Below are positions 18,673-36,115 of a DNA stretch of 64,000 nucleotides, piece after piece. Both the position numbers and the translations under genes were made by a program. The stretch lies in IMG/VR virus record IMGVR_UViG_3300013286_000009, positions 1-64,000 of that record, one strand, 5' to 3'. This DNA comes from a virus. Under the pieces are notes generated by a model that was not told the origin of the DNA, ran no database searches, and saw nothing but the letters and a program-made list of their open reading frames with translations. Numbering within the stretch: the stretch's first letter is position 1; every line of letters begins with the position of its first letter.

Positions 18673-20635
<1,963 letters not shown>

Positions 20636-20690: not shown

Positions 20691-21128
20691 TTATGCTGGT
20701 TTAGTCGGCCATTCGATATCATACGGAAAATTAGCTTGTTTACTAATATTTCTTAATGCATCTCGGTAGCCAGACCAAGCAGTTTTTTGACTGTCTGATA
20801 GCTTGGATTGTCCGATAGCTGTTTCAGTATAATCACTTCTTAACAATAAATCGTCACGAGTGGTGCGGGCATCTTTCTCTAATTCTGCCTGTTCTTTAGG
20901 TTCGGTGACAAACCATTCGCCAGTACCGTGATGAGTGTCGCCGTGTGCGCCGCTTTTTATCGATTCATAAACATCTTTAGAAAATTGCAGTCCAGATGTT
21001 GGAGAAGCCAAAAAATTACATGGGACTGATCCGCCCTTTAATTGAATTTTACACCAGAATTGTTCGACTCCGGTAACAAACGAAATCATTGTAATCTCTT
21101 GAATGTCGTTTAATGTGAATTGCTTCAT
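20691..21128 (-). CDS. Tail fibre/tail assembly chaperone
   Basis: This 145-residue protein ends in a clear phage tail-assembly-chaperone domain of the Phage_tail_APC type. The pattern is RDDLLLRSDYTETAIGQSKL, then KTAWSGYRDALRNISK and PYDIEWPTKP. Such proteins help assemble tail or tail-fibre subunits and are usually encoded next to fibre genes. The N-terminal 75 residues are less conserved. Here it closes the minus-strand oxygenase cluster and lies about 12 kb from the fibre genes, with the halogenase island between. A CATAAATA late-type motif and AAGGGG precede it. Confidence 0.85.
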   Translation of the reverse strand: MKQFTLNDIQEITMISFVTGVEQFWCKIQLKGGSVPCNFLASPTSGLQFSKDVYESIKSGAHGDTHHGTGEWFVTEPKEQAELEKDARTTRDDLLLRSDYTETAIGQSKLSDSQKTAWSGYRDALRNISKQANFPYDIEWPTKPA

Positions 21129-21157: not shown

Positions 21158-21754
21158 CTATTTATGCCTAAAACCTATCCCCGGACGCTTATCAAATGCA
21201 TATTCTGGGTAATAAGGCCCATTCTTGTCAATATAATGAAAAAATGCCTGAACTTGATAGCTACTGTTGTCAGAAACGAACGGATCTCTCCAATGCTCTA
21301 CTTCGCATCCTCTATAAATTATTAAATCGCCCGGCTGTTGTTGTATCATGTTATTTTCTCCCACATACATACCCCAATTATATTCAAAGTTTGGAGGATT
21401 TACATAATCCAAACCCATACAGATTGTGGTACTAATTTCACAACTAGGCCTATCTGTATGTTTTGTAAGAATCATGCCCGGATGATATACTCGGTAATAT
21501 GTGTATGTAGGACACAGTGTTAGACCTGTATGTTTTTCCATATGTGGAAGCATGAATGTCATTAGTGTTTCCATCAATGTATCACCGTATACAGACTGTG
21601 CATTTTCTACTTGAGCATGTTCGCCTGTTTCTGGCGTGAACTCGTATTGCTCTTTTAACAAAGCATATCGAGTAACGATCCTGCAAATATCTGTTGGTAT
21701 GATAGATTTGACACTAACATATTTGTTTATTTTAAAAAATTCAGGATTTGTCAT
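21158..21754 (-). CDS. 2OG-Fe(II) oxygenase-like protein, HTD type
   Basis: This 198-residue protein shows a prolyl-hydroxylase-like fold. YYRVYHPGMILTKHTDRPSC supplies His-Thr-Asp, and LIIYRGCEVEHWRDPF supplies the distal His. The expected Arg that holds 2-oxoglutarate is not evident; YQVQAFFHYID occupies that strand. It is the third of three overlapping minus-strand genes, and its ATG overlaps the stop of the 21751-22539 gene by four bases. It may act in the same pathway as those neighbours. Substrate is unknown and activity is uncertain because of the missing Arg. Confidence 0.72.
   Translation of the reverse strand: MTNPEFFKINKYVSVKSIIPTDICRIVTRYALLKEQYEFTPETGEHAQVENAQSVYGDTLMETLMTFMLPHMEKHTGLTLCPTYTYYRVYHPGMILTKHTDRPSCEISTTICMGLDYVNPPNFEYNWGMYVGENNMIQQQPGDLIIYRGCEVEHWRDPFVSDNSSYQVQAFFHYIDKNGPYYPEYAFDKRPGIGFRHK
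21159..21166 (-). promoter_or_regulatory. Late promoter CATAAATA for the tail chaperone
   Basis: CATAAATA on the minus strand lies 30 bases before ATG 21128, with AAGGGG between. Spacing fits a normal leader. It overlaps the end of the 21158-21754 gene. Confidence 0.6.
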
Positions 21755-22539
21755 TTAAATGGTGCTCCTAGATTCCATGCTACTAAGCTATAGCGTGTGC
21801 CTTTTGTTACTGGAGTAACTTGATGGTGTATATGTGAAGGGAATACCACTACAGACCCTTTTGGTCTTATTTCATTACAAGTATGATATCGATCGGGTCT
21901 ATGTGGCCCAAGATCAAACCTTAATTTTCCGCCGGTATAATCTTTACCATCGTTAAGACTTATAGTCACACTTAATTTTCTTGTTTTTCCAACCATTTTT
22001 GTGTTACCCGTTCGCCATTGTTCCTCGGGCATAGGATTTCCAGTTTGATCTACAAATATTGTACCGTCTGTATTTTTGTGAACTGGGTGTATTGTTGGAT
22101 CAAATGCTTCATACGGACGTTCGCTACAGTCAGTATGCCATCCGTAAAACTGTCCTGGAGTATATTTTGTGAATTGAAAATCCTCAGTAAAATCCCAATC
22201 AAAATTCCAGCTGGCTTTAGTGTTAGCCTCTCTAACGAACGGCCATACTATATCGAACAGCGATGAATTATTTAAAAAAACAACATTAGAATCTCTAACA
22301 TACAAGTTTTCTAGATCCGACTTTGCGTGTATTAATCCGCTTACTGTTTTATCACCAACCGGTACACCTCCTTTTAACGAACTTTTTTCACGCCAGCCTC
22401 CGGTAGTACCGGAAATAGCATCTTCACCATATTTAGATTGAGTATCGTGCATAGCACTAATACCCAGCTCTAATATTTGATCGCAAATTTCAGGAGGTAT
22501 TGCTGATTTAAAAAACCAATAATAATACTGAAGTATCAC
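21751..22539 (-). CDS. Prolyl-4-hydroxylase/PKHD-like 2OG-Fe(II) oxygenase
   Basis: This 262-residue protein is the most canonical oxygenase in the window. FTKYTPGQFYGWHTDCSERP gives the HxD metal pair, followed by RKLSVTISLNDGKDYTGGKL. SVVVFPSHIHHQVTPVTKG gives the distal His, and TRYSLVAWNLG gives the Arg for 2-oxoglutarate. It should hydroxylate a peptide side chain or small molecule. It begins with GTG, whose GTGA overlaps the TGA stop of the 22536-23150 gene, so translation is coupled. A long N-terminal part with a WREKSSLKGG loop could shape the substrate pocket. Confidence 0.88.
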   Translation of the reverse strand: MILQYYYWFFKSAIPPEICDQILELGISAMHDTQSKYGEDAISGTTGGWREKSSLKGGVPVGDKTVSGLIHAKSDLENLYVRDSNVVFLNNSSLFDIVWPFVREANTKASWNFDWDFTEDFQFTKYTPGQFYGWHTDCSERPYEAFDPTIHPVHKNTDGTIFVDQTGNPMPEEQWRTGNTKMVGKTRKLSVTISLNDGKDYTGGKLRFDLGPHRPDRYHTCNEIRPKGSVVVFPSHIHHQVTPVTKGTRYSLVAWNLGAPFK

Positions 22540-23150
22540 CTAAACAATGCTCCGTGTACATGCCCGATTATGAAATGTGCTGTTCCTTTCTTCATTGGTG
22601 CAATTCGATAAGGGATAAAGGAAGGAAAAATAAGACAGCATCCCTGGTCGTTAACACCAGCTTGGGAAGTATCAATATTTAAAAACTCAACTTGGCCGCC
22701 TTCATACTCTGCAGGGTCCGTAAGATTGATAATAAAAGTCAATTTGCGCGAAGGTGCTACTGGTGTCATTTCGATATGCCAATTATAATAATCTTTTTCA
22801 GTATACTTGAAAACTTGGGGATAATCTTGATCTATAATACCTAACAAATTAAAATCATATACTGAATCGTTAGCATTTTTTGTAACATCACGGATATCCA
22901 TAAAAGGAAATCCTTCAACGTTGCCCCTTAGTTTTTGTCTTGTAGATTTATGCAAATCAACAGAACCTATCACTTTAGAAGGTAACCACAATTCTTCAAT
23001 GCAGTTTTTTAATACTTGTTCGCATTGATCTTTGGAAAATAATTCTGATTTGTTAATGGATGTAATTTCTAAACTAGCAATTTTAGTAGTCATTGCTGCC
23101 GCCGCATCGGTAAAACTGCTGTCGATAGATCCTAATTCTTCTGTTGCCAT
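22536..23150 (-). CDS. Degenerate prolyl-hydroxylase-like oxygenase
   Basis: This 204-residue protein is related to the 21751-22539 protein. YTEKDYYNWHIEMTPV has His-Ile-Glu at the first metal position, and RKLTFIINLTDPAEYEGGQV matches the following strands. At the distal His the alignment gives FPSFIPYRIAPM, with Tyr instead of His. At the Arg position KGTAHFIIGHVHG has Ala-His. With both key residues lost it may be inactive, act as a partner subunit, or use another metal site. It is first in a three-gene overlapping operon. AAGGACC lies upstream of the ATG. Confidence 0.75.
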   Translation of the reverse strand: MATEELGSIDSSFTDAAAAMTTKIASLEITSINKSELFSKDQCEQVLKNCIEELWLPSKVIGSVDLHKSTRQKLRGNVEGFPFMDIRDVTKNANDSVYDFNLLGIIDQDYPQVFKYTEKDYYNWHIEMTPVAPSRKLTFIINLTDPAEYEGGQVEFLNIDTSQAGVNDQGCCLIFPSFIPYRIAPMKKGTAHFIIGHVHGALFR

Positions 23151-23261: not shown

Positions 23262-23285
23262 TTGGGACAAGGAGAACTGTTTTTA

Positions 23286-23885
23286 ATGGGTTGGCTAGAA
23301 GATAACACCATGCATTCGCCGGTAACTATATACAAATCCGAGCACACATTTATAGAAACTGTGGTGTCGGGTTCTCGTTTTCCTTGGTTCTGGCAAGGGC
23401 AACAAACGTTCAACGATGCCAAGGAAAATGCGGCCTTGCCAAAAGATATGAAATATTTTAACGGGCCTTATCTTAGTCATATATTGTTACACAGGACTGA
23501 AGTAGAAGAAATCAGCCATTTAACAAGAATCGCAAAAGATTCTAGTGAACATTATGAATTCTTTATAGAAATTTTTCATAGATGGATGGTTGAACAGGGA
23601 TTAAAATATACTAAAATTTTCAGGGCAAATCTTAATCTCACATGGCATAACGGCAATTTGCATACAGAACCACATTTGGATCATGCATGGCCCCATAATA
23701 ATTTTGTAATGTATTTGGATACTTGCGAAGGAGCTGAAACATTACTATGGGATGACAAATTTGAACAAATGTTCGCAATACCCTGTGTTAGTTACACCGC
23801 TGTTACATTTAAATCTTGCTGGCATGCACATAGATATCCTGCTATTGGAAAACGTCGACTAATATTAGTGATTACATACGCATGA
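23286..23885 (+). CDS. 2OG-Fe(II) oxygenase-like protein, HLD type
   Basis: This 199-residue protein starts at MGWLEDNTMHSPV. A TTG 24 bases earlier is in frame but would start before the AAGGAGA site, so it is rejected. HTEPHLDHAWPHNNFVMYL supplies His-Leu-Asp, then LLWDDKF. FKSCWHAHRYPAIGKRRLIL supplies the distal His and Arg. The PWFWQG near the N-terminus is shared in form with PWFYSE (28828 gene) and PWYFTP (29433 gene), making these three a subfamily. It is read in the same direction as the first halogenase 76 bases downstream and is probably in its transcript. Confidence 0.8.
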   Translation: MGWLEDNTMHSPVTIYKSEHTFIETVVSGSRFPWFWQGQQTFNDAKENAALPKDMKYFNGPYLSHILLHRTEVEEISHLTRIAKDSSEHYEFFIEIFHRWMVEQGLKYTKIFRANLNLTWHNGNLHTEPHLDHAWPHNNFVMYLDTCEGAETLLWDDKFEQMFAIPCVSYTAVTFKSCWHAHRYPAIGKRRLILVITYA

Positions 23886-23961: not shown

Positions 23962-25518
23962 ATGAAAATAGTAATTGTTGGCGGAGGTACTGCTGGGTGG
24001 ACTACGGCAGTTTTAATGTCTAGCAGATGGCCTACACATCAGATTACCGTCATTGAATCTACTAAGATAGGAGTTATTGGGGTGGGAGAAAGTACCACCG
24101 GATTCTTAACAGACATACTTACCAATTACGGTCAGGATCTAGATATGGATCACGACGAATTTATTGCGGAAACAGGCGCAACTTTAAAGTATTCCATCAA
24201 ACACAAGGGATGGACTAACGATATAGACGACTTTTATCACGGGCCGATAGACGGTACCACTACTAAGGAAAGTACCCCAGATGTTGCTTTTGCATACGCT
24301 TTGAAATACCTGCAATCTAAACAACGACCTAATGCATCAGAATGCGGGTGGTTAATAACTTCTGGTAAATCTAATTTTAACAAACACACAAATACATTTG
24401 ACAATTATCGACATGCTATGCACGTCGATGCACATTTAGTCGGAAAATATTTTAAAAAGAAAGCGTTATGCAGATCTAATGCCTCTCATGTAGATTCAGA
24501 AGTTGTTAAAACTAATCTTGATGAAAAAGGATACATTAAATCCGTTAGATTAACTGATGGTTCTGAGGTAGCCGGTGATTTTTTTATAGATTGTACTGGA
24601 TTTTCTAAAATGTTGATGAAAGAAATGCCCGGTAACGGATGGGAAAGTTATCAAAAAAATCTCCCTTTAAATACCGGATTGCCATTCCAATTAAAATACT
24701 TAGATGATGAGATGCCAGAGCCGTTTACAACAGCTTGGGCTCAAAAGAACGGATGGATGTGGCAAATACCACTCATGGATCGCAAAGGATGTGGTTATGT
24801 ATTTTGTGATGCATTTACTACTCCAGATAAAGCACAAGAAGAAATTGAGACTATTTTAAAAAGACCAATAGAACCTATTAAAGTTATTAAATTTGATACT
24901 GGTAGACAAAAATCATCATGGATTAATAACTGTGTAACTATAGGGCTGTCTTCGGCCTTTTTAGAACCACTAGAAGCTACCAGTATTCATACTACTATTG
25001 TACAAGCAAGAATACTAGCATTTGAATTTATTAAACATACTCTTGAAGATACTATAAATCCTGGAAGTATTAACATATACAATCAAAGAACAAGACGTAT
25101 ATTCGACGATGTTAAAGATTTCTTAGTAATGCACTATATGGGTGGTAGGAATGATTCAGAATTTTGGAAATATATTGAAACTGGTGCAACTAAAACCCCG
25201 TATGTCAACGATTTACTGCTCATGGCTCAGAACAAATTGCCTACTGTAAATGATTTTCCACAATATCTTGGCTCGGCCGGTTGGGCACTGTACAGCTATG
25301 TTATGGCTGGAATAAATCGAATAGATATATCAAAGATGGATGGCGAATTAAATCTAGAAACCCCTGGCGGGAATTTAGAATTTATAGCTAGAGAATTTCA
25401 TTATGATTTCCAAGATCAGATGAAAAGAAAATATCAGGATTGCGCCAGCTATGATGACTTCATAAGACATTTCAGGGCAATTAGACACAAACACGGTTTT
25501 TCAGATCTTAAACCTTAA
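23962..25518 (+). CDS. Flavin-dependent tryptophan-type halogenase 1
   Basis: Flavin-dependent halogenases use FADH2, O2 and halide to make HOX, which a Lys passes to an electron-rich ring. This 518-residue protein has the FAD motif GGGTAGW at the N-terminus and GVGEST near 41-45. The catalytic Lys is in ATLKYSIKHKGW (K76), the diagnostic WMWQIP is near 265-270, and GLSSAFLEPLEATS near 330 carries the conserved Glu. All match PrnA-type enzymes (Lys79, Glu346). The gene follows an oxygenase and has AGGAATC before its ATG. Its stop lies base to base with that of the oppositely oriented 25519-26136 gene. Substrate is unknown. Confidence 0.95.
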   Translation: MKIVIVGGGTAGWTTAVLMSSRWPTHQITVIESTKIGVIGVGESTTGFLTDILTNYGQDLDMDHDEFIAETGATLKYSIKHKGWTNDIDDFYHGPIDGTTTKESTPDVAFAYALKYLQSKQRPNASECGWLITSGKSNFNKHTNTFDNYRHAMHVDAHLVGKYFKKKALCRSNASHVDSEVVKTNLDEKGYIKSVRLTDGSEVAGDFFIDCTGFSKMLMKEMPGNGWESYQKNLPLNTGLPFQLKYLDDEMPEPFTTAWAQKNGWMWQIPLMDRKGCGYVFCDAFTTPDKAQEEIETILKRPIEPIKVIKFDTGRQKSSWINNCVTIGLSSAFLEPLEATSIHTTIVQARILAFEFIKHTLEDTINPGSINIYNQRTRRIFDDVKDFLVMHYMGGRNDSEFWKYIETGATKTPYVNDLLLMAQNKLPTVNDFPQYLGSAGWALYSYVMAGINRIDISKMDGELNLETPGGNLEFIAREFHYDFQDQMKRKYQDCASYDDFIRHFRAIRHKHGFSDLKP

Positions 25519-26136
25519 TTAGAAAAAATTAAAGGATAGGCTTACTCTAAGATCGTCTTCATCTTCTGTAAGATTAGATTCAACATAGTGTGCTAAATGC
25601 CCGGGAAATAATAATAACATTCCTTCTTTGGGTTTAAATGAATATTGTGTCCATAGTCTGCTGTTATTAATATCTTTTCCTTGCTTTTCTAATTGTTGGC
25701 TAATGAAATTCATGCGGTCTACTTCTATTACCGATCTAGTAAACACGATGTTGCCGCTATTAGCCGGTACCTTAAGATAATAAACACCGCTTAGAAAAGC
25801 ATTATGATGAGTGTGTTCTCTGTTGTATGTATGGCGTGGATTGGCATTATACCAGTATGCAACAGTATCCATTTCTGAAGGTAATTCCCATGCAGATTTT
25901 ATACGTTTAGCAGACGGAATTATATAATTTTGAAATAATCGATCAGTTGCCCAGTTATCGTAATTAGGAGAATACATCGCCGGAGATTGCCAACCTCCTA
26001 AATTGCTCTTTTGCACACTAGGAGTAGTTGGTATTAATTGTTTTATGGCATCAAGAATAGGCGGATTGATCACCGGATCTAAATAAGTACTAAAACAAGA
26101 TGATACAAACAATAAATTTTCTTTTAGCTCTGCCAT
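25519..26136 (-). CDS. 2OG-Fe(II) oxygenase-like protein, HxH type
   Basis: This 205-residue protein is a good member of the uncharacterised TIGR02466-like oxygenases. YNREHTHHNAFLSGVYYL is followed by PANSGNIVFTRS. Later LLLFPGHLAHYVESN gives the distal His, and DDLRVSLSFNFF the 2-oxoglutarate Arg at the extreme C-terminus. The first metal segment has His-Thr-His. It is a single-gene unit with TATAAATA five bases before its ATG, and it ends exactly where halogenase 1 ends on the other strand. Convergent transcripts would therefore overlap. Confidence 0.8.
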   Translation of the reverse strand: MAELKENLLFVSSCFSTYLDPVINPPILDAIKQLIPTTPSVQKSNLGGWQSPAMYSPNYDNWATDRLFQNYIIPSAKRIKSAWELPSEMDTVAYWYNANPRHTYNREHTHHNAFLSGVYYLKVPANSGNIVFTRSVIEVDRMNFISQQLEKQGKDINNSRLWTQYSFKPKEGMLLLFPGHLAHYVESNLTEDEDDLRVSLSFNFF

Positions 26137-26141
26137 GTAGA

Positions 26142-26149
26142 TATTTATA
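26142..26149 (-). promoter_or_regulatory. Late promoter TATAAATA abutting start at 26136
   Basis: A perfect TATAAATA lies five bases before ATG 26136. The region is near-palindromic (ATATTTATAAAT), so the plus strand also reads TTATAAAT about 25 bases before halogenase 2. The divergent pair may share this element. Confidence 0.6.
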
Positions 26150-26175
26150 AATGCACATTTAACACGGAATCATTC

Positions 26176-27645
26176 ATGAAACAACTTAAAAAACTATCAG
26201 TGATAGGGGGCGGAACAGCTGGATTTGTTGCCGCTTTAATTCTTAAACAAAGATTTCCACTTATGGAAATTGAATTAGTTAGATCTAAAAAGATAGGTAT
26301 TATAGGTGTCGGTGAAGGTAGTACTGAACACTGGAATGAATTCCTCACATATATTGGAGTTAAATGGCAAGCTGTTATTCAGCACTGCGATGCTACGTTT
26401 AAATGCGGTATTATGTTTCGTGGGTGGGCAGATGAGGACTATATGCATAGCATCGGGCCAGAAAATGATGTTAAGAATGGACAATATCCTACCATCTATG
26501 GCAAATACATAGCAGAAGGTGCTGCCAACAGATTCTTTAATCCTAATTTAACGTGGGATAACAAGCTATACGCAAACTTTTTAAAGCCTGAGACATCTTC
26601 TCCCTACAATCAATATCATTTTAATACTCAAAAATTGAATGATTTCCTTACCATGATTGCCATACACAAAGGCATAACAGTTACCGATGATGAAATAGTC
26701 GATATTATCCTTAACGAACAAGGCGAAATAGAAGAGCTTGTTGGAGAAACAAGCTCTTATAAATCTGATTTTTACATAGATAGTACCGGTTTTAAAAGAT
26801 TATTGATATCTAAACTAGGAGCAAAGTGGTGCAGTTATAGCCAGTATCTTAAAATGAAAGCCGCTATTGTATTTCCTATAGGGGATACAGAAGAATACAA
26901 TATATGGACCACAGCACAAGCTATGGATTACGGTTGGATGTTTAAAATTCCAGTATGGGGACGTAGTGGCAACGGGTATATTTTTGATAGTGATTATATT
27001 ACTGCGGAACAGGCGCAAGAAGAAGTTGAAAAATTCCTCGGACATAAGATAGAAGTAGGTAAACATTTGACATTTGATCCGGGTGCCTTAGATAACGTAT
27101 GGATTAAAAATTGTTGCGCTGTTGGACTTAGTTCTAGTTTTGTAGAACCATTAGAAGCTACGAGTATTGGAACTAGTATACAACAAGTTTTTAAATTAAT
27201 GCATCGTATTCCAAATTATAACGAAGATACTATAGAAGAATATAATAAAGATATTAGTGATATGTTAACTAACATCAGAGATTTTGTTATTTTGCATTAT
27301 GTTACAAACAAATCAAATACACAATTTTGGAAAGATGTAGCTAATATTAAATTGCCAGACGAATTAGAACGTAATATTAAAAAATGGCGTAAAAATTTAC
27401 CCATAGCAGAAGATTTTCAAGGCAAGTCTGCTTATATTTTATTTAGAGATGCTCATTACTTACAAGTATTAGCTGGATTAAAATTGTTTGACCAGCAAAG
27501 CATACGTGCTGAATACGACATGATGAATCCAGCTGTTAAAAAAATAGCAGAAGATTTTATTAGAGAGACTAAAACTGCTGAAAAACGTGATCCAGTTATA
27601 GGTCACAAAGAATTTATTACAAAATTACGTAATACAAAATACTAA
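26176..27645 (+). CDS. Flavin-dependent tryptophan-type halogenase 2, variant motif
   Basis: This 489-residue halogenase homologue has GGGTAGF at the FAD site and GVGEGST near 45-50. The catalytic Lys is in HCDATFKCGIMFRGW (K76), and VEPLEATS lies near 325. The signature WxWxIP reads WMFKIP near 255, with Phe for the second Trp. In known enzymes this motif blocks monooxygenase chemistry, so the change could alter product or substrate. It starts 39 bases from the divergent 25519-26136 gene. It ends base to base with the stop of the 27646-28227 oxygenase, repeating the arrangement of halogenase 1. Confidence 0.92.
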   Translation: MKQLKKLSVIGGGTAGFVAALILKQRFPLMEIELVRSKKIGIIGVGEGSTEHWNEFLTYIGVKWQAVIQHCDATFKCGIMFRGWADEDYMHSIGPENDVKNGQYPTIYGKYIAEGAANRFFNPNLTWDNKLYANFLKPETSSPYNQYHFNTQKLNDFLTMIAIHKGITVTDDEIVDIILNEQGEIEELVGETSSYKSDFYIDSTGFKRLLISKLGAKWCSYSQYLKMKAAIVFPIGDTEEYNIWTTAQAMDYGWMFKIPVWGRSGNGYIFDSDYITAEQAQEEVEKFLGHKIEVGKHLTFDPGALDNVWIKNCCAVGLSSSFVEPLEATSIGTSIQQVFKLMHRIPNYNEDTIEEYNKDISDMLTNIRDFVILHYVTNKSNTQFWKDVANIKLPDELERNIKKWRKNLPIAEDFQGKSAYILFRDAHYLQVLAGLKLFDQQSIRAEYDMMNPAVKKIAEDFIRETKTAEKRDPVIGHKEFITKLRNTKY

Positions 27646-28227
27646 TCAGCTGAAATTCATTGCTATTGATATGCGGGGAGTAATATTCTTCCCAGGTTCT
27701 ACCATGTGTCTAAGCCAGGATCTGAATATTAAAAGTTTTGCAGGTTCTGGAGCATAAGATATACGGGTAAAGCTAAGTGTATTTTTCTTTTTAATTTTCT
27801 TAAGGCCAAACATATCAGGTTCTAGTGGGCTTTCAAATATGATACGCCCGGCATTTTCTGGAGCAGCCATATAAAAAACTGCACTAAAAATAGACCCGTT
27901 ATGTGTATGAAATTCTTGCCAACCCTTGTCATCAGATATGTTTAACCAAGCAGAATCATTTTTATATGTTCCTTCGCAATTATGTAACGATGCGAATTCA
28001 TTAACATGATCTGTAATTAAATCTAACAACGGTTTAAATACCGGATCGTTAGTTAAATCATGAGTACCGTGTGTATTATATGTACCACCTAACCATTCTG
28101 CTCCTCCAGTTGGAGTTTTATCTTTGATGATAAAAGAATGTTCTATAAGGTTTGCATTTTCTTCTGCGGATATAAGATTTTCTTCTACATAAATGCATGT
28201 AGGAAACCACATTTCAACTTTGCCCAT
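27646..28227 (-). CDS. 2OG-Fe(II) oxygenase-like protein, HxH type
   Basis: This 193-residue protein contains WQEFHTHNGSIFSAVFYM, then PENAGRIIFESPLEPDM. Next comes KLLIFRSWLRHMVEPGKN with the distal His, and TPRISIAMNFS with the Arg at the C-terminus. It groups with the 25519 and 28214 proteins. It is the last gene of a four-gene minus-strand operon and overlaps the 28214-28831 gene by 14 bases. GCAGGACC lies just before its ATG. Its stop touches the halogenase 2 stop. Confidence 0.8.
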   Translation of the reverse strand: MGKVEMWFPTCIYVEENLISAEENANLIEHSFIIKDKTPTGGAEWLGGTYNTHGTHDLTNDPVFKPLLDLITDHVNEFASLHNCEGTYKNDSAWLNISDDKGWQEFHTHNGSIFSAVFYMAAPENAGRIIFESPLEPDMFGLKKIKKKNTLSFTRISYAPEPAKLLIFRSWLRHMVEPGKNITPRISIAMNFS

Positions 28228-28831
28228 TTGGTCCTGCCCATATATTAAATGAAATTGCTATGCGATTCTTATCAGATTTATTAACAGTTACTGAATGATT
28301 TAACCAGGATTCAAATAATATAATTTCTCCTTTTACTGGCGTATGATTAACACTGTAAAAATTATAACCGTTATCTTCTTTTTTTAAAGTATTAAAAAAT
28401 ACATCTGTTACTCGCCTAGTTTCTATAGGATTAAAAAATACTATATCACCGCTGTCTTCTGGTACTTGCAAATAATAACAACCGCTTATTAATGCTCCGT
28501 AATGATCATGCCTATTAAAATCAGCACCCGGCGGGTATAACTGTAACCAGGACGTTATATCCAACAAACATTCGCGATCAAACCCTAATAATTCTAAAAA
28601 TTTTCTAGCTTCTGAATTAATTACCTCTATCATAGGAAAATCTTTAATTTTTCCTAAGAAATTTTTATCTGTTTGATAATAAGTTGTTAATAATTGTTTA
28701 GGATCTCGGGATTCTTCAAAGCATTTAGATTCGTCGATGTAGTCGTATACTAATCCTAAAGAATTAGCTACTAATTCTGGATCAACGGTTGTTGTTACTA
28801 TAGGAATTGGAAATATATGATCTATCTTCAT
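28214..28831 (-). CDS. 2OG-Fe(II) oxygenase-like protein, HDH type
   Basis: This 205-residue protein has ADFNRHDHYGALISGCYYL, in which His-Asp-His gives either an HxH or a shifted metal pair. PEDSGDIVFFNPIETRR and EIILFESWLNHSVTVNKS with the distal His follow, and NRIAISFNIWAG carries the Arg. The fold and order match the other HxH-type proteins. The start overlaps the stop of the 28828-29433 gene (ATGA), so translation is coupled. Substrate is unknown. Confidence 0.8.
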   Translation of the reverse strand: MKIDHIFPIPIVTTTVDPELVANSLGLVYDYIDESKCFEESRDPKQLLTTYYQTDKNFLGKIKDFPMIEVINSEARKFLELLGFDRECLLDITSWLQLYPPGADFNRHDHYGALISGCYYLQVPEDSGDIVFFNPIETRRVTDVFFNTLKKEDNGYNFYSVNHTPVKGEIILFESWLNHSVTVNKSDKNRIAISFNIWAGPNGQS

Positions 28832-29433
28832 AATGGTTCTAGATTTATATTTAATATCACCCGTCTACTGGATTGTATAGGATTGCTAGCAGTATGGTAT
28901 TGTAAACCATTTATCCATACAAGTCGATTGGCTTTAGGATGTACTCGGGTGCGGGTGGTAAACTTGTCATATCCAATGCCATTACTACCTGGTACAGGGA
29001 TAAACGTTTGATCAAATATTCTAGTATCACCGTCGCAGTCGTTAAAATAAAATATCAATGTTTCGTGTGGTCGAAAATAATCAACATGTGGTAAGTTATA
29101 ATTTTCTTCTGTATAATTTATTCTAGGATGTTTCATACTGCATCTTGCACGTATCAAATGTCTTTCTGTAAAATTTAAGGTTGCAAGTTTTTTAAAAAAT
29201 GGCATGAATAAATCGTATGTAAAACTTTTTACGTCGTATGTTTTATCATAAATTACATGATTGAATCCATCCGTTTCAACTGCTAATAAATCTTTTACTA
29301 CATTATCTTCAGGAGCCAATGACACATGTTCAGAATAAAACCATGGAAATTTTTCCGATAATACAGCCGCGGCCAATGGTTGAAATTGTTCCGCAGGCAA
29401 AAAATCATCTATTATTTTTAATCGATCTGTCAT
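28828..29433 (-). CDS. 2OG-Fe(II) oxygenase-like protein, HVD type
   Basis: This 201-residue protein has NYNLPHVDYFRPHETLIFYF for the His-Val-Asp pair. DCDGDTRIFDQ follows, then VWINGLQYHTASNPIQSSRR with the distal His and an Arg pair. The opening RLKIIDDFLPAEQF is shared with KIIDDFIPKTYQ of the 29433 gene, so the two are close paralogues. It is second in the operon, starting at the stop of the first gene. It resembles rather general phage oxygenases whose substrates have not been found. Confidence 0.82.
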   Translation of the reverse strand: MTDRLKIIDDFLPAEQFQPLAAAVLSEKFPWFYSEHVSLAPEDNVVKDLLAVETDGFNHVIYDKTYDVKSFTYDLFMPFFKKLATLNFTERHLIRARCSMKHPRINYTEENYNLPHVDYFRPHETLIFYFNDCDGDTRIFDQTFIPVPGSNGIGYDKFTTRTRVHPKANRLVWINGLQYHTASNPIQSSRRVILNINLEPL

Positions 29434-29990
29434 TATATTACATCAAAATTAATAATGCATCTTACATCTTGTAAAGGTTGTTCAGCTGTATGATAGTACT
29501 TACCATTAAAAATAACAGCTCGTCCTTGTTTTGGAGTTATCCTATGTATGATATTGTAATCTTGTACCTTAGCATCAAATTCTTCAATTGCTCCATGGCG
29601 CTGTTTATCCACTATGATAGTATCTCCATCACTGTCTGTTACATAATATAATATTACTAAATGATCATATGTTAAATCTATGTGTAAATTATCAACTTGT
29701 TTTAAATTTTTTGATGGAAATTGCATAAAACTGCGACACTGTACTACATCGTTGTATCTAAAATTTATAGCATCGCATCCAATATATGCTAATGGTGCTA
29801 ACATATTATAAAAACTGCTTACAGTTTCTTTGCGATCTCTGTATAAATGAGCTAGCGCAGGAGTGTGTGTACTGGCCAAATTTCCAAATGTAATATCTGG
29901 AGTGAAATACCAGGGAAATGCAGGACCCATTAGTGTTTGTTTAATCTGTTCTTGATAAGTTTTTGGTATAAAATCGTCTATTATCTTCAT
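29433..29990 (-). CDS. 2OG-Fe(II) oxygenase-like protein, HID type
   Basis: This 185-residue protein has QVDNLHIDLTYDHLVILYYV for His-Ile-Asp. DSDGDTIIVDKQ and GRAVIFNGKYYHTAEQPLQD with the distal His follow, and VRCIINFDVI supplies the Arg. It is the first gene of a four-oxygenase operon (29990 to 27646) whose members overlap by 1 to 14 bases. TATAAATA lies six bases before its ATG. The upstream region to halogenase 3 is 73 bases and divergent. Confidence 0.82.
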   Translation of the reverse strand: MKIIDDFIPKTYQEQIKQTLMGPAFPWYFTPDITFGNLASTHTPALAHLYRDRKETVSSFYNMLAPLAYIGCDAINFRYNDVVQCRSFMQFPSKNLKQVDNLHIDLTYDHLVILYYVTDSDGDTIIVDKQRHGAIEEFDAKVQDYNIIHRITPKQGRAVIFNGKYYHTAEQPLQDVRCIINFDVI

Positions 29991-29996
29991 GTTGGA

Positions 29997-30004
29997 TATT
30001 TATA
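29997..30004 (-). promoter_or_regulatory. Late promoter TATAAATA for the four-oxygenase operon
   Basis: A perfect TATAAATA lies six bases before ATG 29990. It is expected to drive all four genes down to 27646. No Shine-Dalgarno fits between it and the ATG. Confidence 0.6.
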
Positions 30005-30063
30005 GAAATTTTCTACGGTACCAAAAAAAACAATAAGTACTGATAGACGGAGCAATTAAACGA

Positions 30064-31530
30064 ATGAAAGTACAATCATTAACAATAGTAGGCGGAGGTA
30101 CTAGCGGTTGGCTAGCGGCCGCATATCTTTATAAAAATCAACCCGACATAAAAATAACGGTTATTGATAAAGAAGTAGGCACTCCTGTAGGTGTAGGAGA
30201 GGCGACACTGCTGTCATTCCGACCATTCCTAGACGAATGCGGAATACCTATAGAAGAATGGATTGTTCCCTTAGATGCTGGCTATAAATCTGGTATATTG
30301 TTTACTAATTGGCGAGAAGACGGCGATGATATATGGCATCCTTTTCAAAAAGGAAATAGAGAAATCATGGGAGAGATCAAAACTCATGATCTATGGAGCC
30401 GTAACCAACATCTAGATTTCAAAGAATATGCTTTAGATTTTTACTCGTCTTCTATAGATCATAATTCCGTCGATGTTATTAACATTGAAAACTATGCCAG
30501 TCATGTTGACTGTGGGAAATTAGTATTATTTTTACAGGATAGACTTAAAGATAAAATCGATATTATACGTTCAGACGTTGTTAGTGTTGTAAACAACGCT
30601 CAAGGAATTGACTATCTAGAATTAAAAGACGGTTCTAAAATTAAAAGCGATTTGTATGTGGATTGTACCGGGTTTAAGAACGTACTAAGAACACCTGCAA
30701 AAAGAATCAACTTGGAAGATAGACTATTTGTTAATACCGCATTGGCACATCCAGTACAATACCAAGACCGGTCTACTGAATTTAAACCACACGCCGTATG
30801 TGAAGCAGTAGAACATGGCTGGATATGGAAGATCGGTGTTGCCAGTCGTATCGGCACCGGACTAGTGTTTAATCGAAACATAACTACCGTAGAAGATGCT
30901 AAAGATTCTTTTGTTGCACACTGGAGTGATCGTATAAAGAAAGAAAACATTCGTGTAATTGACTGGTCTCCTTTTTACATAGAAGATCAATGGAGTGGCA
31001 ATGTAGTTAATATTGGATTAAGCGCAGGATTTATCGAACCGTTAGAAAGTACAGGCATTGCGCTAATCACTATCGGTATAACACAATTGCATAATGCATT
31101 AAATGAAAGATACTATACTGATATAAATCGAGATTATTATAATCTACAGATGAAAACATTGTTTGAAGATTGCATAGATTTTGTCAGTATGCACTATGCT
31201 AACAATCGCAGGCCTGGAAAATTCTGGGACCATGTGCGTAATACTTTTAAACCTTCGGAAAGAATGTTGCATCAGATAGACGAATTAGCTGATCCTAACA
31301 TAGTAGTACCTCGAAATTCTAAACATAATTATATGTTTGGAGGAAGTAACTGGATGTTGATGCTATATCAACTAGGATATACTTTGGCGCCACGCAATAT
31401 GTCAATCCCAGATGAAGTAGCTCTTGAAAAATTAGTAAAAAACTATAAAGAATATGCTAAGAATAGGCATGTATGGAGCAGGCATCACAGTACAGAAATA
31501 GATAGAATTCACGAGATTAGAAAACTATGA
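30064..31530 (+). CDS. Flavin-dependent tryptophan-type halogenase 3, variant motif
   Basis: This 488-residue halogenase homologue shows GGGTSGW at the FAD site and GVGEAT near 43-48. The catalytic Lys is in DAGYKSGILFTNW (K75), and GLSAGFIEPLESTG lies near 320. The signature reads WIWKIG near 253, with Gly replacing the final Pro. YVDCTGF and HYANNRRPGKFW are typical of the family. GGAG precedes the start at a suitable distance. It heads a three-gene plus-strand operon with the 31527 gene and halogenase 4, joined by an ATGA overlap. Substrate is unknown. Confidence 0.94.
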   Translation: MKVQSLTIVGGGTSGWLAAAYLYKNQPDIKITVIDKEVGTPVGVGEATLLSFRPFLDECGIPIEEWIVPLDAGYKSGILFTNWREDGDDIWHPFQKGNREIMGEIKTHDLWSRNQHLDFKEYALDFYSSSIDHNSVDVINIENYASHVDCGKLVLFLQDRLKDKIDIIRSDVVSVVNNAQGIDYLELKDGSKIKSDLYVDCTGFKNVLRTPAKRINLEDRLFVNTALAHPVQYQDRSTEFKPHAVCEAVEHGWIWKIGVASRIGTGLVFNRNITTVEDAKDSFVAHWSDRIKKENIRVIDWSPFYIEDQWSGNVVNIGLSAGFIEPLESTGIALITIGITQLHNALNERYYTDINRDYYNLQMKTLFEDCIDFVSMHYANNRRPGKFWDHVRNTFKPSERMLHQIDELADPNIVVPRNSKHNYMFGGSNWMLMLYQLGYTLAPRNMSIPDEVALEKLVKNYKEYAKNRHVWSRHHSTEIDRIHEIRKL

Positions 31531-32270
31531 GAGAAATACGTTGGTCGTTTAGCACAAGTTGCGAATGGTTCGTTGATCATGCGTCGTCAATAGAGCATTT
31601 GGTACAGGACTACGATCCTTTTACTAGTCTGACTAAAGATGTTATGGCTGAACGTAAAGGAGCAGTGTTTACCAAATGTCCTGCACATACTGATTTTATC
31701 AAAAATACATTTATCATACGTGCTCCGTTTGATCTTACTATCAATAGCAAGATAGATCCTGTTACTAATGACGGTGAATTGTGGTGCGACAACCTCACAC
31801 AGGAACAATTTAAACAGATAATAGACACTAGATTTTTATTTAATAATGAACGCGGTATTAATCCGTGGCCTATTATTGGCATCGATTGGTTATACTGTTT
31901 TACTTCTGACGTTTCTACTATATTGCAAATAATGCCGGCATTCATGCACAGAAATCAATTTGTAGAAAAAACAATTATGGTTCCCGGGCAGTTTGATATT
32001 AGCAAATGGGTGCGTAATGTAGAAACAGCTTTTGAAGTAAGAGGCAACAACGAACGTATCGAGATAAAGAAAGGTGATGCCATTATGTATGCCAAATTTT
32101 TATGCGATGAACCTGTAAGATTAGTACAAGAATCTATTCCTTGGGAGGAGATGTATGTGTGTAACGAGATAAAAAGTAAAGATCGCAACAGGCCTCTGCA
32201 GAACCGTTACGAAGAATATGCCAAAGTACGTGCGGCAAAGTGTCCATATCCACATGACAAACAAGATTAA
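31527..32270 (+). CDS. Unknown protein co-transcribed with two halogenases
   Basis: This 247-residue soluble protein is not recognised. It begins MREIRWSFSTSCEWFVDHAS. A segment FTKCPAHTDFIKNTFIIRAP is followed by a beta-rich middle, with VPGQFDISKWVRNVETAFEV and a C-terminal IKKGDAIMYAKFLCDEPVRL. The last 40 residues are basic and helical, ending in CPYPHDKQD. No P-loop, oxidoreductase or metal motif is clear. Its start overlaps halogenase 3 (ATGA), and its end overlaps halogenase 4 by 17 bases, so it is translated between them. Plausible roles are a substrate carrier or partner of the halogenases, by context only. Confidence 0.75.
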   Translation: MREIRWSFSTSCEWFVDHASSIEHLVQDYDPFTSLTKDVMAERKGAVFTKCPAHTDFIKNTFIIRAPFDLTINSKIDPVTNDGELWCDNLTQEQFKQIIDTRFLFNNERGINPWPIIGIDWLYCFTSDVSTILQIMPAFMHRNQFVEKTIMVPGQFDISKWVRNVETAFEVRGNNERIEIKKGDAIMYAKFLCDEPVRLVQESIPWEEMYVCNEIKSKDRNRPLQNRYEEYAKVRAAKCPYPHDKQD

Positions 32271-33819
32271 TTCCATTATCGTAGTAGGCGGTGGCAGTGC
32301 AGGCTGGATTACAGCGGCATCATTGATCACACAACTTAAAGATGTCAAGGTAACTGTGATTGAAAGTCCTAACATACCCACTGTAGGTGTGGGAGAAAGC
32401 ACAGTAGGCGGAATACGTGCTTGGTTGCGCATGGTGGGTATAGTAGATCGCGACTTTATGAAAGCTACCGATGCCAGCTACAAGATTGCTATTAAATTCA
32501 ATAATTTCTATGAAAAAGATCAAGGCACTTGGTATTATCCATTTGGTCGACCACTGCTGGAAGATAATTTGCATGGAAGAGATGATTGGTTTATTAAGAA
32601 ATCTCTATACCCAAAAACTCCTAGTCACGATTATGTAGACTGCTATTATCCGCAAATGGCACTGGTTAATTCTAATAAGATCATGATGAACAACGGTGAC
32701 CTTGATAATTTTAATTTTTATAACGACACTGCTTTTCATTTTGATGCGGCTAAACTAGGTATTTGGTTGCGAGATCATCACTGTAAACCTAAAGGTGTAA
32801 GTCACATACCTGCTGAAGTACAAGAAATAAAAGTAGATGAAACCGGTATACAATATCTCACATTAGATAGCGGTGCAAATATATCTGCTGACTTGTATAT
32901 AGACTGTACTGGATTTAAAAGTTTGCTGTTGGGAGAGGCATTGGCAGAACCATTCGTAAGTTACGAACATTTGCTACCTAACAATCGTGCTTGGGCTACT
33001 AGAATTCCTTATACCGATAAAGAAACACAACTGACCAATGTAACTGAATGCACTGCAACGGATAACGGTTGGGTATGGAACATACCTTTATGGAGTCGTA
33101 TTGGAACTGGCTATGTTTACAGTGACAAATATCTTACTCCTGAACAGGCAAAAAATGATTTTATTAACTATTTGTCAGCACAAGGACATCCCGTAGAAGA
33201 TCTAGAATTCCGTGATATTAAGATGCGTGTGGGTAAACATAAGAGACTATGGGTTAAAAATTGTGTAGCTCTGGGTCTTAGTGCGGCATTTATAGAACCT
33301 TTAGAATCAACAGGATTATTAACTACACATGATTTTGCTAGATCATTATGCGATATGTTGGTAAGAGATTCAATTAGCCAATGGGATAGAGATGAGTTCA
33401 ATCTTAAATGCGAAGATGAATTTAATTACTGGGCTCAATTTGTTTCCATGCATTACGCTCTAAGCCAAAGAAATGACAGTAAATATTGGCAAGATATTAA
33501 TAATAAATCCTATCTGGATTTAATGCCTGCTGTTAATAGACTAGGAACACAAAGTCTATATCATCATTCTATCTATTCAAAAAACTTTAATAAATTTTTT
33601 CAAGACGATGACGGAGTTAATTGTTTGGCAGCTGGAATGAATTGGAATCCCCAAACATCTGTAAATCTCAATACTATATTTGCTGTTGGTACTGATTTAC
33701 ACGAAGATTTTAGTCTAATGGTTGATAAATTAGAAGACAGAAAAGAAAGATGGAAAAGGGCTGTAGCAACAGCCCCTAGTCTTTATCAATATCTAAAAGA
33801 TAATTTTTATAAAGATTAA
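32254..33819 (+). CDS. Flavin-dependent tryptophan-type halogenase 4
   Basis: This halogenase has 521 residues from MTNKINSIIVV. A start 36 bases upstream would add a tail unlike the family, where the FAD motif lies within the first dozen residues. Motifs are GGGSAGW, GVGESTVGG near 45-53, the catalytic Lys in DASYKIAIKFNNF (K77), WVWNIP near 273, and GLSAAFIEPLEST near 340. All are intact. It overlaps the 31527 gene by 17 bases. Its stop overlaps the stop region of the first glycine-rich fibre gene by four bases on the opposite strand. Confidence 0.94.
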   Translation: MTNKINSIIVVGGGSAGWITAASLITQLKDVKVTVIESPNIPTVGVGESTVGGIRAWLRMVGIVDRDFMKATDASYKIAIKFNNFYEKDQGTWYYPFGRPLLEDNLHGRDDWFIKKSLYPKTPSHDYVDCYYPQMALVNSNKIMMNNGDLDNFNFYNDTAFHFDAAKLGIWLRDHHCKPKGVSHIPAEVQEIKVDETGIQYLTLDSGANISADLYIDCTGFKSLLLGEALAEPFVSYEHLLPNNRAWATRIPYTDKETQLTNVTECTATDNGWVWNIPLWSRIGTGYVYSDKYLTPEQAKNDFINYLSAQGHPVEDLEFRDIKMRVGKHKRLWVKNCVALGLSAAFIEPLESTGLLTTHDFARSLCDMLVRDSISQWDRDEFNLKCEDEFNYWAQFVSMHYALSQRNDSKYWQDINNKSYLDLMPAVNRLGTQSLYHHSIYSKNFNKFFQDDDGVNCLAAGMNWNPQTSVNLNTIFAVGTDLHEDFSLMVDKLEDRKERWKRAVATAPSLYQYLKDNFYKD

Positions 33820-34961
33820 TATCTTACAACAACAATACCAGAACCACCGTCTGCACCATGCTGTCCACCACCGGCACCGCCACCTGTATTTGCGCCGCCG
33901 TGGCCGCCACGTGCTGTAGGTTGTGCATCTTGGCCTTGGGTAAGAGCCATTCCGCCGCCTTGGCTAAGTTTAATAGTTCCTCCGTATGGCCCGCCATGAT
34001 GATGTCCGCCACCGCCGCCACCACCAATGCCACCATCGCTAAATCCCCAGCCTAAATGGCCACCTCCGCCACCTCCGCCACCATAGTATATTGAGGCACC
34101 GCTACCGAGGATATCGCTCGCACGGCCTGCGCCGCCTATAATCATATTATTACGAAAACTACCACGGTATGCTTGACGTCCGTCAGGAGCACTTGCTCCA
34201 GGGCCGCCTGCACCGCCGCCACCTCCGCCTTGGTGAGTATTTTCGGTGTCGACATTGTATCTAAGGCCAGAACCTCCAGGATATCCTAATCCTACAGTTC
34301 CGTATCCACCATATGATCGCTGTCTACTGCCGCTAGTATCTGTATTTGAGCCGCCGCCACCGGATGCACTACTGCGGCCGCCGGTTGATCCGTTGTCCAT
34401 CGATCCGTTACTGCCGCCAGCCCAGGATCCACCGCCACCTCCGCCTGTGGCGGTTATGGATCCAAACACACTTGATCCTCCAGTTGGCCCTGCGACGTTA
34501 GGAGTACGGCCGCCGCCACCGCCGCCTACTGTAACACTAACACCAACGCCAGCACTAACCGGATAACTACGATTAAAGCTAACGCCACCCCCGCCACCCC
34601 CGGCAGCCCAATCGTATCCGCTTGAACCACCTCCGCCAACTACTAGCACTTGAACATTGCCGGTAAATGTTGGTGTAAATGTTGCAGATGTAACTGAGGT
34701 AAACATGTGAATAATAGCACCGTGAGCATAATATATGCTATCACCGCCTGTACCCACTAGACCCGGACTATAACCTGTTACTGGTCTCCAAGCACTACCG
34801 TCATAAAATTCTAAAGTTCCTGAAGAATTTCCTGCGGCATTATAGTTATTATTAGTAGTATTATATCTTAACTTTGCTAATCCCGTTGATGTACTAACTG
34901 TCTGATTAGGCAGTTTAATATTGTCTGATCCGTTGATTGTGGTATTTTTAAGGGTTGCCAT
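33816..34961 (-). CDS. Glycine-rich tail fibre/adhesin protein 1
   Basis: This 381-residue protein has a fibre-type N-terminal part. It carries LEFYDGSAWRPVTGYSPG, then FTPTFTGNVQVLVVGGGG leading into some 250 residues of very Gly-rich sequence (runs of five to eight Gly). It ends GGSGIVVVRY. The VLVVGGGG...GIV(V/I)(V/I)RY frame is the glycine-rich domain seen in phage and bacterial surface proteins, possibly packing as polyglycine-II sheets like some T4-like adhesins. It is the last gene of the long fibre operon and meets halogenase 4. GGAG precedes its ATG. It probably binds receptors. Confidence 0.82.
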   Translation of the reverse strand: MATLKNTTINGSDNIKLPNQTVSTSTGLAKLRYNTTNNNYNAAGNSSGTLEFYDGSAWRPVTGYSPGLVGTGGDSIYYAHGAIIHMFTSVTSATFTPTFTGNVQVLVVGGGGSSGYDWAAGGGGGGVSFNRSYPVSAGVGVSVTVGGGGGGRTPNVAGPTGGSSVFGSITATGGGGGGSWAGGSNGSMDNGSTGGRSSASGGGGSNTDTSGSRQRSYGGYGTVGLGYPGGSGLRYNVDTENTHQGGGGGGAGGPGASAPDGRQAYRGSFRNNMIIGGAGRASDILGSGASIYYGGGGGGGGHLGWGFSDGGIGGGGGGGHHHGGPYGGTIKLSQGGGMALTQGQDAQPTARGGHGGANTGGGAGGGQHGADGGSGIVVVRY

Positions 34962-34972
34962 CTATCGCTCCA

Positions 34973-36112
34973 TTAGTATCTGATAATAACAATGCCACTG
35001 CCGCCATTGCCTGCTTGCCCGTATGAGCCACCACCACCACCGCCTGTATTATCTCCGGCACTGCCGCCAACATAATGACTAGACCCTTGTCCGCCATTAT
35101 TAATAGAATAGCCACCGCCTACTGATGTTCCTGTATGCTGTGTACCAGGATATCGAGGGCCGCCATGATATTGGGCGCCGCTACCACCACCACCAATACC
35201 ACCACTTGGACACATTGTGCTGTTACCATGGTGTACAGCGCCACCGCCACCACCACCCCAGTACTGTATGTAACCCATGACATCACTGGCTGCGCCTGCG
35301 CCGCCATTTTGTGCTAATCCTTGGTGGCAATCGTCCTCCATACTCCAACCAGGTTCGGCAGCTCCGCCGCCTCCGCCTGCATGGTGACTATCTTCACCTT
35401 GACGATTATATCTCATTCCGCTTCCGCCTGGAAATCCTTGGCCGCTTACACCGCGTCCGCCCAAATTTGTGTTACGACTGTCGTTTGGACCAGTATGGCT
35501 ATTTGATCCGTTGCCTTGTGATGCAGGACAACCGCCGCCGCCTGAACCGCCTGGTCGTGCGGCATATCCGTCCCAAGATCCGCCACCACCACCGCCGTAT
35601 GCGGTAATTGATCCAAATGTTGTGTTGGCTCCTGGATTTGAACTTTGCGCATAGGCAGGGGGTGAAGGCTGTGTACCGGCTACGTTTAGCGGAATTCCTG
35701 AACCTTGACTTACTGGATATGCTCTGTTGTAAACGAATCCTCCAGCGCCTCCGCCACCGCCTAGATGTCCTCCGCCTGAGCCACCGCCACCAATTACTAA
35801 AACTTCTACGGTTCCTGAAAATGCAGGTGTAAATGTTGCGGCGCCTGATGCAGTAAACATGTGTACTACACCGGGTGCTCGATTTGAATTATTTGGAGCA
35901 CTGTATATCAAAGTGCCGCCTGTACCTATAGAACCTTTGCTGATACCAGTAATAGGTCTCCAACCAGTAGAATCATAAAATTCCATCAAATTGTTAGCAG
36001 TATTTAATCTTAACATACCTGCTGTTGGACTACCGTTTCTACTAGCAGTTGCTCCTGTTGGTAAATCTAAATATCCAGTATCACTGATTGTTGTGCTTTG
36101 TAAAGTTGCCAT
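34973..36112 (-). CDS. Glycine-rich tail fibre/adhesin protein 2
   Basis: This 379-residue paralogue of the proteins at 33816 and 36116 has the same order: LMEFYDSTGWRPITGISKG, FTPAFSGTVEVLVIGGGG, a long Gly-rich part and GGSGIVIIRY. The Gly-rich loops differ from those of its neighbours in composition (for example Ser/Asn/Asp/His-rich turns), as expected for variable receptor-contact loops. It is separated from its neighbours by 11 and 3 bases. A tail-fibre tip role is inferred. Confidence 0.82.
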   Translation of the reverse strand: MATLQSTTISDTGYLDLPTGATASRNGSPTAGMLRLNTANNLMEFYDSTGWRPITGISKGSIGTGGTLIYSAPNNSNRAPGVVHMFTASGAATFTPAFSGTVEVLVIGGGGSGGGHLGGGGGAGGFVYNRAYPVSQGSGIPLNVAGTQPSPPAYAQSSNPGANTTFGSITAYGGGGGGSWDGYAARPGGSGGGGCPASQGNGSNSHTGPNDSRNTNLGGRGVSGQGFPGGSGMRYNRQGEDSHHAGGGGGAAEPGWSMEDDCHQGLAQNGGAGAASDVMGYIQYWGGGGGGAVHHGNSTMCPSGGIGGGGSGAQYHGGPRYPGTQHTGTSVGGGYSINNGGQGSSHYVGGSAGDNTGGGGGGSYGQAGNGGSGIVIIRY

Positions 36113-36115
36113 TGA

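Follow-up and report, generated by a model that had tools for sequence, protein, structure and literature searches.

Viral halogenases first came to light as prnA-like genes of cyanophages, and one of them, VirX1, has been characterised biochemically. We know of no native substrate for any of these viral enzymes. VirX1 prefers iodide, forms a trimer and has an open, lidless pocket (PMC8407142, PMC7948982). Phage flavin-dependent halogenases (FDHs), pairs of FDH genes and abundant 2-oxoglutarate (2OG) oxygenase genes in cyanophages have been described as well (PMC3037559, PMC2984593, PMC10452541). Here, we describe a locus of an uncultured virus in which four FDH genes are interleaved with or neighbour 11 genes for 2OG-Fe(II) oxygenases or oxygenase-like proteins. 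It lies in bases 1-64000, hereafter the window, of the 85.6 kb IMG/VR virus contig IMGVR_UViG_3300013286_000009. A conserved island of four or five FDHs, or its exchange together with adhesin genes, was not found in our literature search, with subscription journals outside its scope. We tentatively propose that the region may well be an exchangeable tail-adhesin maturation cassette, which would halogenate and hydroxylate receptor-binding proteins.

The four FDH genes are located on the plus strand and span 9,858 bp. FDH1 (23962-25518, 518 aa) matches PF04820 with an E-value of 6e-97 and carries K76 and E338 together with the segments WMWQIP and EPLEATS. FDH2 (26176-27645, 489 aa, E 6e-96) has K76, E327, WMFKIP and EPLEATS, while FDH3 (30064-31530, 488 aa, E 4e-83) has K75, E328, WIWKIG and EPLESTG. 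The VirX1-type FDH4 (32254-33819, 521 aa, E 2e-108) contains K77, E351, WVWNIP and EPLESTG; an in-frame ATG upstream at 32218 offers an alternative start. All matches are full-length and score 280-363 bits (cut-off 21), and with E-values of 1e-83 to 1e-108 chance is excluded as their source. No further PF04820 gene was found on the 85.6 kb contig. A first-pass annotation had placed four halogenase homologues at 23962, 26176, 30064 and 32254. The open reading frames and PF04820 matches begin at these positions, its count of the catalytic lysines (K76, K76, K75 and K77) is exact, and the FAD motif (GxGxxG, 4/4) and the EPLE(A/S)T segment are kept in all four proteins, as it had stated.

The catalytic Lys and Glu are conserved in 70/70 alignment rows of the four FDH clades, and both residues of FDH1 are kept in 26/26 orthologues. 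The WxWxIP motif is intact in FDH1 and FDH4 and altered in FDH2 and FDH3, and the halide loop reads ESTG in FDH3 and FDH4 and EATS in FDH1 and FDH2. The EATS loop and the WxF of FDH2 are constant within each clade, a few rows excepted, and a clade-specific chemistry of FDH1 and FDH2 is possible. A similar loop, EPLESTS, is present in 9luq, a solved bacterial homologue that its depositors named Trp halogenase. The fold comparison covers the FDH2 model (AF2, pLDDT 89), for which the best PDB matches are the Trp halogenases SttH, AbeH and PyrH with TM values of 0.86-0.87. Close pairs have dN/dS values of 0.03-0.17 for the FDHs and 0.04-0.10 for groEL, and all four FDHs are under strong purifying selection. 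Outside the 70 rows, the catalytic Glu is replaced by Gln or Asn in L125 7938-9374 (S-RIM44 gp061), L056 545-2059 and L078 432-1964; according to a review, a Glu-to-Gln change inactivates an FDH (PMC8407142). Short divergent FDH-like proteins of about 400 aa (23-26% identity), possibly decaying or regulatory, adjoin intact FDHs in G012-G014 (L022 about 8178, minus strand) and in L055 (8761-9969).

Any two of the four FDHs share only 26-33% identity. A quick maximum-likelihood tree groups FDH1 with S-RIM44 gp061 (support 98), FDH2 and its orthologues with P-SSM2_217 (support 100) and FDH3 with S-SSM7_125 (SH-aLRT 100). FDH4 is placed inside the VirX1-containing clade (SH-aLRT 99) and matches VirX1 (6qgm) in phmmer with an E-value of 8e-107. 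The tree that the first-pass annotation had suggested building with VirX1 joins FDH4 to this enzyme and leaves FDH1-3 outside its clade. Isolate sequences sit on long branches, but the four clades separate clearly. Recent tandem duplication, which the earlier annotation had likewise thought less likely in view of the wide divergence, is ruled out by the low identities and the four separate clades. Judged by these sequences, the island is an assembly of four old FDH subfamilies and not a product of local duplication, and it is plausible that the four enzymes act on separate substrates. A close relative of FDH3 in a cellular genome was not found. Relatives of FDH2 (31-47% identity) occur in contigs of marine metagenome-assembled genomes, including L130-L136 (33-47%; Porticoccaceae, Maricaulis, Verrucomicrobia and others), and several of these also carry 2OG genes. 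Some of these contigs probably belong to phages and may point to hosts.

Among 50,697 INPHARED records, 65-70 hold a relative of any one of FDH1-4. The isolate maximum among the records listed is three FDH places, in S-RIM44, only two of which are adjacent. The view that VirX1-type phages carry a single halogenase had to be given up, as Syn9 and Syn10 have two halogenase genes and S-RIM44 has three. In IMG/VR, multi-FDH islands do occur elsewhere: at least 26 contigs besides this one carry 4 or 5 FDH genes, a number that includes some near-duplicates and rests on counts corrected by hand for split genes (G012-G014, G022, G026 and G042 were overcounted automatically). These contigs are G001-G005, G007, G008, G012-G014, G017, G018, G023-G025, G038-G040 and G042, and those of L009, L250-L253, L275 and L278. 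In most of them, 2OG genes are interspersed in the order FDH1-FDH2-FDH3-partner-FDH4 and the flanks match those of the window; the arrangement differs in G038-G040 and G042. The full order, with one 2OG gene after FDH1 and several after FDH2, is kept at FDH identities of 47-76%. Because order and flanks recur in most of the at least 26 contigs, the multi-FDH set characterises a group of uncultured phages, in which it is conserved. The earlier impression that a four-gene set is uncommon thus stands insofar as four genes exceed any isolate searched, but the set is no rare oddity.

The position of the set is also constant. From 18 to 58 kb, the window contains a 2OG oxygenase gene, groEL, a tail assembly chaperone gene, 2OG genes, FDH1, a 2OG gene, FDH2, four 2OG genes, FDH3, the partner protein gene and FDH4, followed by three glycine-rich adhesin genes, a fibre C-terminus with an S74 chaperone and two giant fibre genes. 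The FDH island is flanked by neck and tail genes with groEL on one side and by glycine-rich adhesins and giant fibres on the other. The genes neck-gp15-nudix-groEL-tail chaperone precede the FDH/2OG block both here and in about 15 contigs that are syntenic with the window, and the layout recurs in more contigs. On the far side of the block, the adhesins and a giant fibre follow wherever the sequence of a syntenic contig extends there. The first-pass annotation had mentioned neither the 11 2OG oxygenases nor this fixed place beside tail adhesins and giant fibres.

The block is also exchanged. G026 and the window are 84-88% identical in DNA over 11.8-18.0 kb and 80-86% identical from 57.3 kb on, and their neck proteins share 99% of amino acids. 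Between these flanks no similar DNA is present in the groEL/2OG/FDH part until FDH4 (51% aa identity), groEL is missing in G026, and the fibres are about 50% identical in amino acids. Since the divergence covers both the modification genes and the fibres between far more similar flanks, they changed together, and the groEL-to-fibre block has been replaced as a unit in this one clear case. G005 and L009 break at the same upstream boundary: they share 91-95% identity in vs388/gp15/nudix, against 62-77% in groEL and the FDHs, in a comparison that covers vs388 to the FDHs. L198 (core 76-93%, different FDHs) is a third candidate for an exchange.

A fibre-type homologue is present in 41/62 viral FDH loci of at least 15 kb, so the association is not universal. 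Among isolates, FDHs adjoin fibre or adhesin genes in 9 of the 14 loci viewed, the VirX1-type locus of Syn9 among them. In Syn9, S-RIM44, P-TIM40, S-WAM1, P-RSM6, S-CREM1 and S-SZBM1, a fibre gene (or large upstream gene) is followed by a 'tail fiber assembly' or 'collagen-like' adhesin, the halogenase(s) and then 2OG genes. In P-SSM2 and the actinophage DSL-LC01, fibre-assembly or collagen genes adjoin the FDH. The adhesins of Syn9 and S-CREM1 share phrog_863 and phrog_2295 with those of the window.

How could such a cassette work? Late in infection, the FDHs would take FADH2 from host reductases, O2 and a halide, and would form hypohalous acid that is steered by the active-site Lys. A halogen would be placed on Trp or Tyr side chains of newly made adhesins or fibres, and the 2OG enzymes would hydroxylate other side chains. 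Modification may change how the adhesins bind receptors, how stable they are or how the host recognises them. Four divergent copies would be kept because every FDH would serve a different site or protein. The lack of the flavin reductase PF01613 in 12 contigs, most of them fragments and one (G039) of 278 kb, suggests that FADH2 would come from the host; the controls of this search worked. Conserved Trp residues in loops of the glycine-rich adhesins (W118, W180 and W305 of the 381-aa protein) are candidate modification sites. The FDH SrpI brominates a proteusin peptide with a structured leader (PMC10858898), and the pocket of VirX1 is large and accessible, without the helical lid with which Thal closes its Trp site (PMC7948982, PMC8407142), which fits a bulky substrate. 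We infer the halogenation and hydroxylation of adhesins and an effect on host binding from gene location, from co-exchange and from the precedent of a protein-like substrate (PMC10858898). With slightly more reserve, we suggest that several phage lineages could modify their own receptor-binding proteins by halogenation and hydroxylation, using a conserved and exchangeable cassette of multiple FDHs, multiple 2OG enzymes, partner protein and chaperones, and that this could be the native role of VirX1-type halogenases.

Several points weigh against an adhesin-directed function. The FDHs are all on the plus strand and most 2OG genes on the minus strand, hence they do not form one operon. A detectable homologue of the fibre or neck genes of the window is missing in 19 of the 62 viral FDH loci of at least 15 kb, where unrelated fibres would escape detection. 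Five of the 14 isolate loci are located away from fibre genes; such loci are those of S-B64 (replication genes), S-H38, S-SSM7 (carbamoyltransferase cluster), HTVC008M (terminase) and S-RIM44 gp061 (auxiliary metabolic gene region). Whether FDH1 and FDH2 use a halide is uncertain, given the changes in their halide loop or Trp motif (EPLEATS, WMF). In T4-like phages recombination concentrates at fibre loci, and co-exchange at such a general hot spot need not imply a functional link. To our knowledge, no halogenated phage protein has been demonstrated.

The main rival explanation is a small-molecule or surface-glycan pathway, in which FDHs and 2OG enzymes would make a halogenated and hydroxylated metabolite (an antibiotic, a toxin or a capsule decoration) in the infected or pseudolysogenic cell. 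Such a pathway has been proposed in a comparison of jumbo phages for the S-SSM6a cluster of carbamoyltransferases, halogenase and 2OG enzymes (PMC7824862), the closest isolate relative of FDH3 is a halogenase of this cluster type (S-SSM7), and most characterised FDHs act on small molecules (PMC8407142, PMC7948982). However, among the annotated window genes (PHROG/Pfam) no non-ribosomal peptide synthetase, polyketide synthase, carbamoyltransferase, sugar or transport genes were recognised. A precursor of a ribosomally synthesised and post-translationally modified peptide (RiPP) was not recognised either, and the intergenic gaps of the island, at most about 110 bp, leave little space for a precursor peptide gene. 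The constant neighbours of the FDH block are adhesins and fibres instead of biosynthetic genes, and we consider a metabolite unlikely as the product. Similarly, the fixed position beside virion adhesins would be left unexplained if the FDHs served auxiliary metabolism or host manipulation, by modifying free tryptophan or indole, or host proteins such as a surface receptor, and thereby altered physiology or blocked superinfection. This appears improbable to us: although prnA homologues have traditionally been counted as host-like or cyanophage signature genes (PMC3037559, PMC2984593), and S-RIM44 gp061 and the S-B64 FDHs lie among metabolic or replication genes, modification of Trp alone would not need four divergent FDHs and about 11 2OG enzymes, and the VirX1 pocket is open, unlike that of the lidded Trp-specific enzymes (PMC7948982).

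Accessory genes might also simply collect at the tail-fibre locus, with FDH and 2OG enzymes being useful elsewhere and the link to the fibres only positional. The known hot-spot character of fibre loci, the differing number and type of FDHs at this locus between contigs and the fact that groEL travels with the FDH block would all fit. Shuffled cargo, however, would not be expected to keep its gene order at 47-76% FDH identity under strong constraint, and the combination of FDH, glycine-rich adhesin and 2OG genes recurs in distantly related cyanophages, as does FDH with collagen genes in an actinophage; we find mere cargo more improbable still. Very unlikely, finally, is that some or all copies are now plain flavin monooxygenases acting as hydroxylases, or sources of hypohalous acid. 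Free hypohalous acid does leak from FDHs (PMC7948982), EPLEATS replaces EPLESTG in FDH1 and FDH2, and WxF replaces WxW in FDH2. Yet none of the four clades has lost the catalytic Lys or Glu in any row. Halogenation requires the Lys, whereas the flavin hydroperoxide forms without it (PMC7948982), so that its conservation argues for halogenation; the Trp halogenase-named 9luq moreover has a loop similar to that of FDH1 and FDH2.

The virion genes of the contig (terminase, neck, sheath, tube and other structural proteins) are those of a contractile-tailed, T4-type phage. The terminase has its best isolate matches in PA5oct-like Pseudomonas jumbo phages (51%) and a Sinorhizobium jumbo phage (47%). 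The terminase thus does not support a cyanophage origin of the contig, and the source appears to be a jumbo-like, uncultured phage. The tail sheath protein (8424-12377) is unusually long (1317 aa), with the sheath-family matches in its C-terminal half.

Upstream of the FDHs, groEL (18971-20635, plus strand, 554 aa, phrog_5725 E 6e-142) is the first conserved gene of the exchanged block and shares 61-77% identity with the corresponding genes of island contigs. It is followed by the tail (fibre) assembly chaperone gene (20691-21128, minus strand), with matches to PF16778 (E 6e-15) and tail-fibre-assembly PHROGs. The FDH-partner protein (31527-32270, plus strand) is conserved between FDH3 and FDH4, resembles phrog_17480/phrog_7084 and, with a dN/dS of 0.14-0.17, evolves faster than the FDHs. 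Syn9 gp43 and S-CREM1_70, encoded directly after the halogenases, belong to phrog_7084, to which the partner protein shows a weak match; a comparison with the profiles of these two proteins was not convincing (hhalign probability 6%). S-CREM1_70 is annotated as a triphosphate nucleotidohydrolase. We claim no function for the partner protein, as its good AF2 model (pLDDT 89) found only a weak dUTPase-like PDB match (E 1.4e-3, TM 0.36).

Downstream, the adhesin-type and giant fibre genes are on the minus strand. Three adhesin-type genes (33816-34961, 34973-36112 and 36116-37177) match Gly_rich_2, phrog_2295 and phrog_863, and a sequence search for a PDB relative of the glycine-rich adhesin found none. 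The fourth adhesin-type gene of 33816-38293 encodes the tail-fibre C-terminus with an S74 chaperone (37178-38293). The giant tail fibres 1 (38665-49785, 3706 aa) and 2 (49833-57959, 2708 aa) match the tail fibre family phrog_9851 with E-values of 6e-134 and 4e-120, respectively, and the latter has five CBM_5_12 matches.

Five of the 2OG-Fe(II) oxygenases match PF13759: OG1 (13479-14048, minus strand, E 4e-15, also phrog_81), which is located outside the exchanged block, OG2 (17987-18640, plus strand, E 7e-16), OG7 (25519-26136, minus strand, E 1e-19), OG8 (27646-28227, minus strand, E 2e-19) and OG9 (28214-28831, minus strand, E 3e-21). These read H-x-H (HCH, HTH, HDH) where the others read H-x-D/E. 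PF13640 is matched by OG4 (21751-22539, E 1e-13, HTD...H) and by the oxygenase-like OG5 (22536-23150, E 5e-6), OG10 (28828-29433, E 7e-4; phrog_274 E 3e-34; HVD...H) and OG11 (29433-29990, E 2e-3; phrog_274 E 1e-36; HID...H), all on the minus strand. OG5 reads HIE and has lost the distal His, and metal binding may differ in OG5 and in the H-x-H oxygenases. The oxygenase-like OG3 (21158-21754, minus strand, phrog_2954 E 1e-42, HTD motif) and OG6 (23262-23885, plus strand, phrog_274 E 2e-21) carry the PHROG names 'ferrochelatase' and 'endonuclease V'. These names of phrog_2954 and phrog_274 ('DNA endonuclease V') land on HxD...H 2OG-oxygenase-like proteins (21158-21754, 23262-23885 and 28828-29990), and many cyanophage 'endonuclease V' genes adjoining halogenases may be misnamed.

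If tail adhesins are indeed the target, halogenated and hydroxylated proteins would join phage receptor binding and host-range evolution, and the locus would be a system by which a virus modifies host-range proteins post-translationally. The four divergent FDH subfamilies would then be possible protein-acting halogenation tools. The conserved link to tail adhesins provides a concrete substrate hypothesis for viral halogenases that is testable on the culturable phages Syn9, S-RIM44 and S-WAM1, whose loci have the same layout.

Compared with described systems, the FDHs share with PrnA, RebH, Thal and PyrH the PF04820 family, the FAD motif, the catalytic Lys and Glu and the fold (TM about 0.85-0.87 for the FDH2 model). 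They differ from these enzymes in sequence (23-28% identity for FDH2) and in the halide loop of FDH1 and FDH2, and the window has no recognised biosynthetic cluster and no flavin reductase gene was found. The S-SSM6a/S-SSM7 cluster (PMC7824862) holds the nearest isolate relative of FDH3, has 2OG genes nearby and is located upstream of the neck gene gp13; its carbamoyltransferases and sugar genes have no recognised counterpart in the window. SrpI, a flavin-dependent RiPP brominase (PMC10858898), is a precedent for a protein-like substrate, and no RiPP precursor was recognised in the window. VirX1 of cyanophage Syn10 (PDB 6QGM) belongs to the same clade as FDH4. With the Syn9 and S-RIM44 loci, the window shares the plan of fibre, glycine-rich adhesin, FDH(s), partner-type protein, 2OG oxygenases and neck. 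Unlike in these cyanophages, the terminase is nearest to PA5oct-type jumbo phages, the FDHs interleave with opposite-strand 2OG genes, and groEL and giant fibres are part of the locus. Where isolates have one or two FDHs per locus, with the third of S-RIM44 located elsewhere, the window has four, from four subfamilies.

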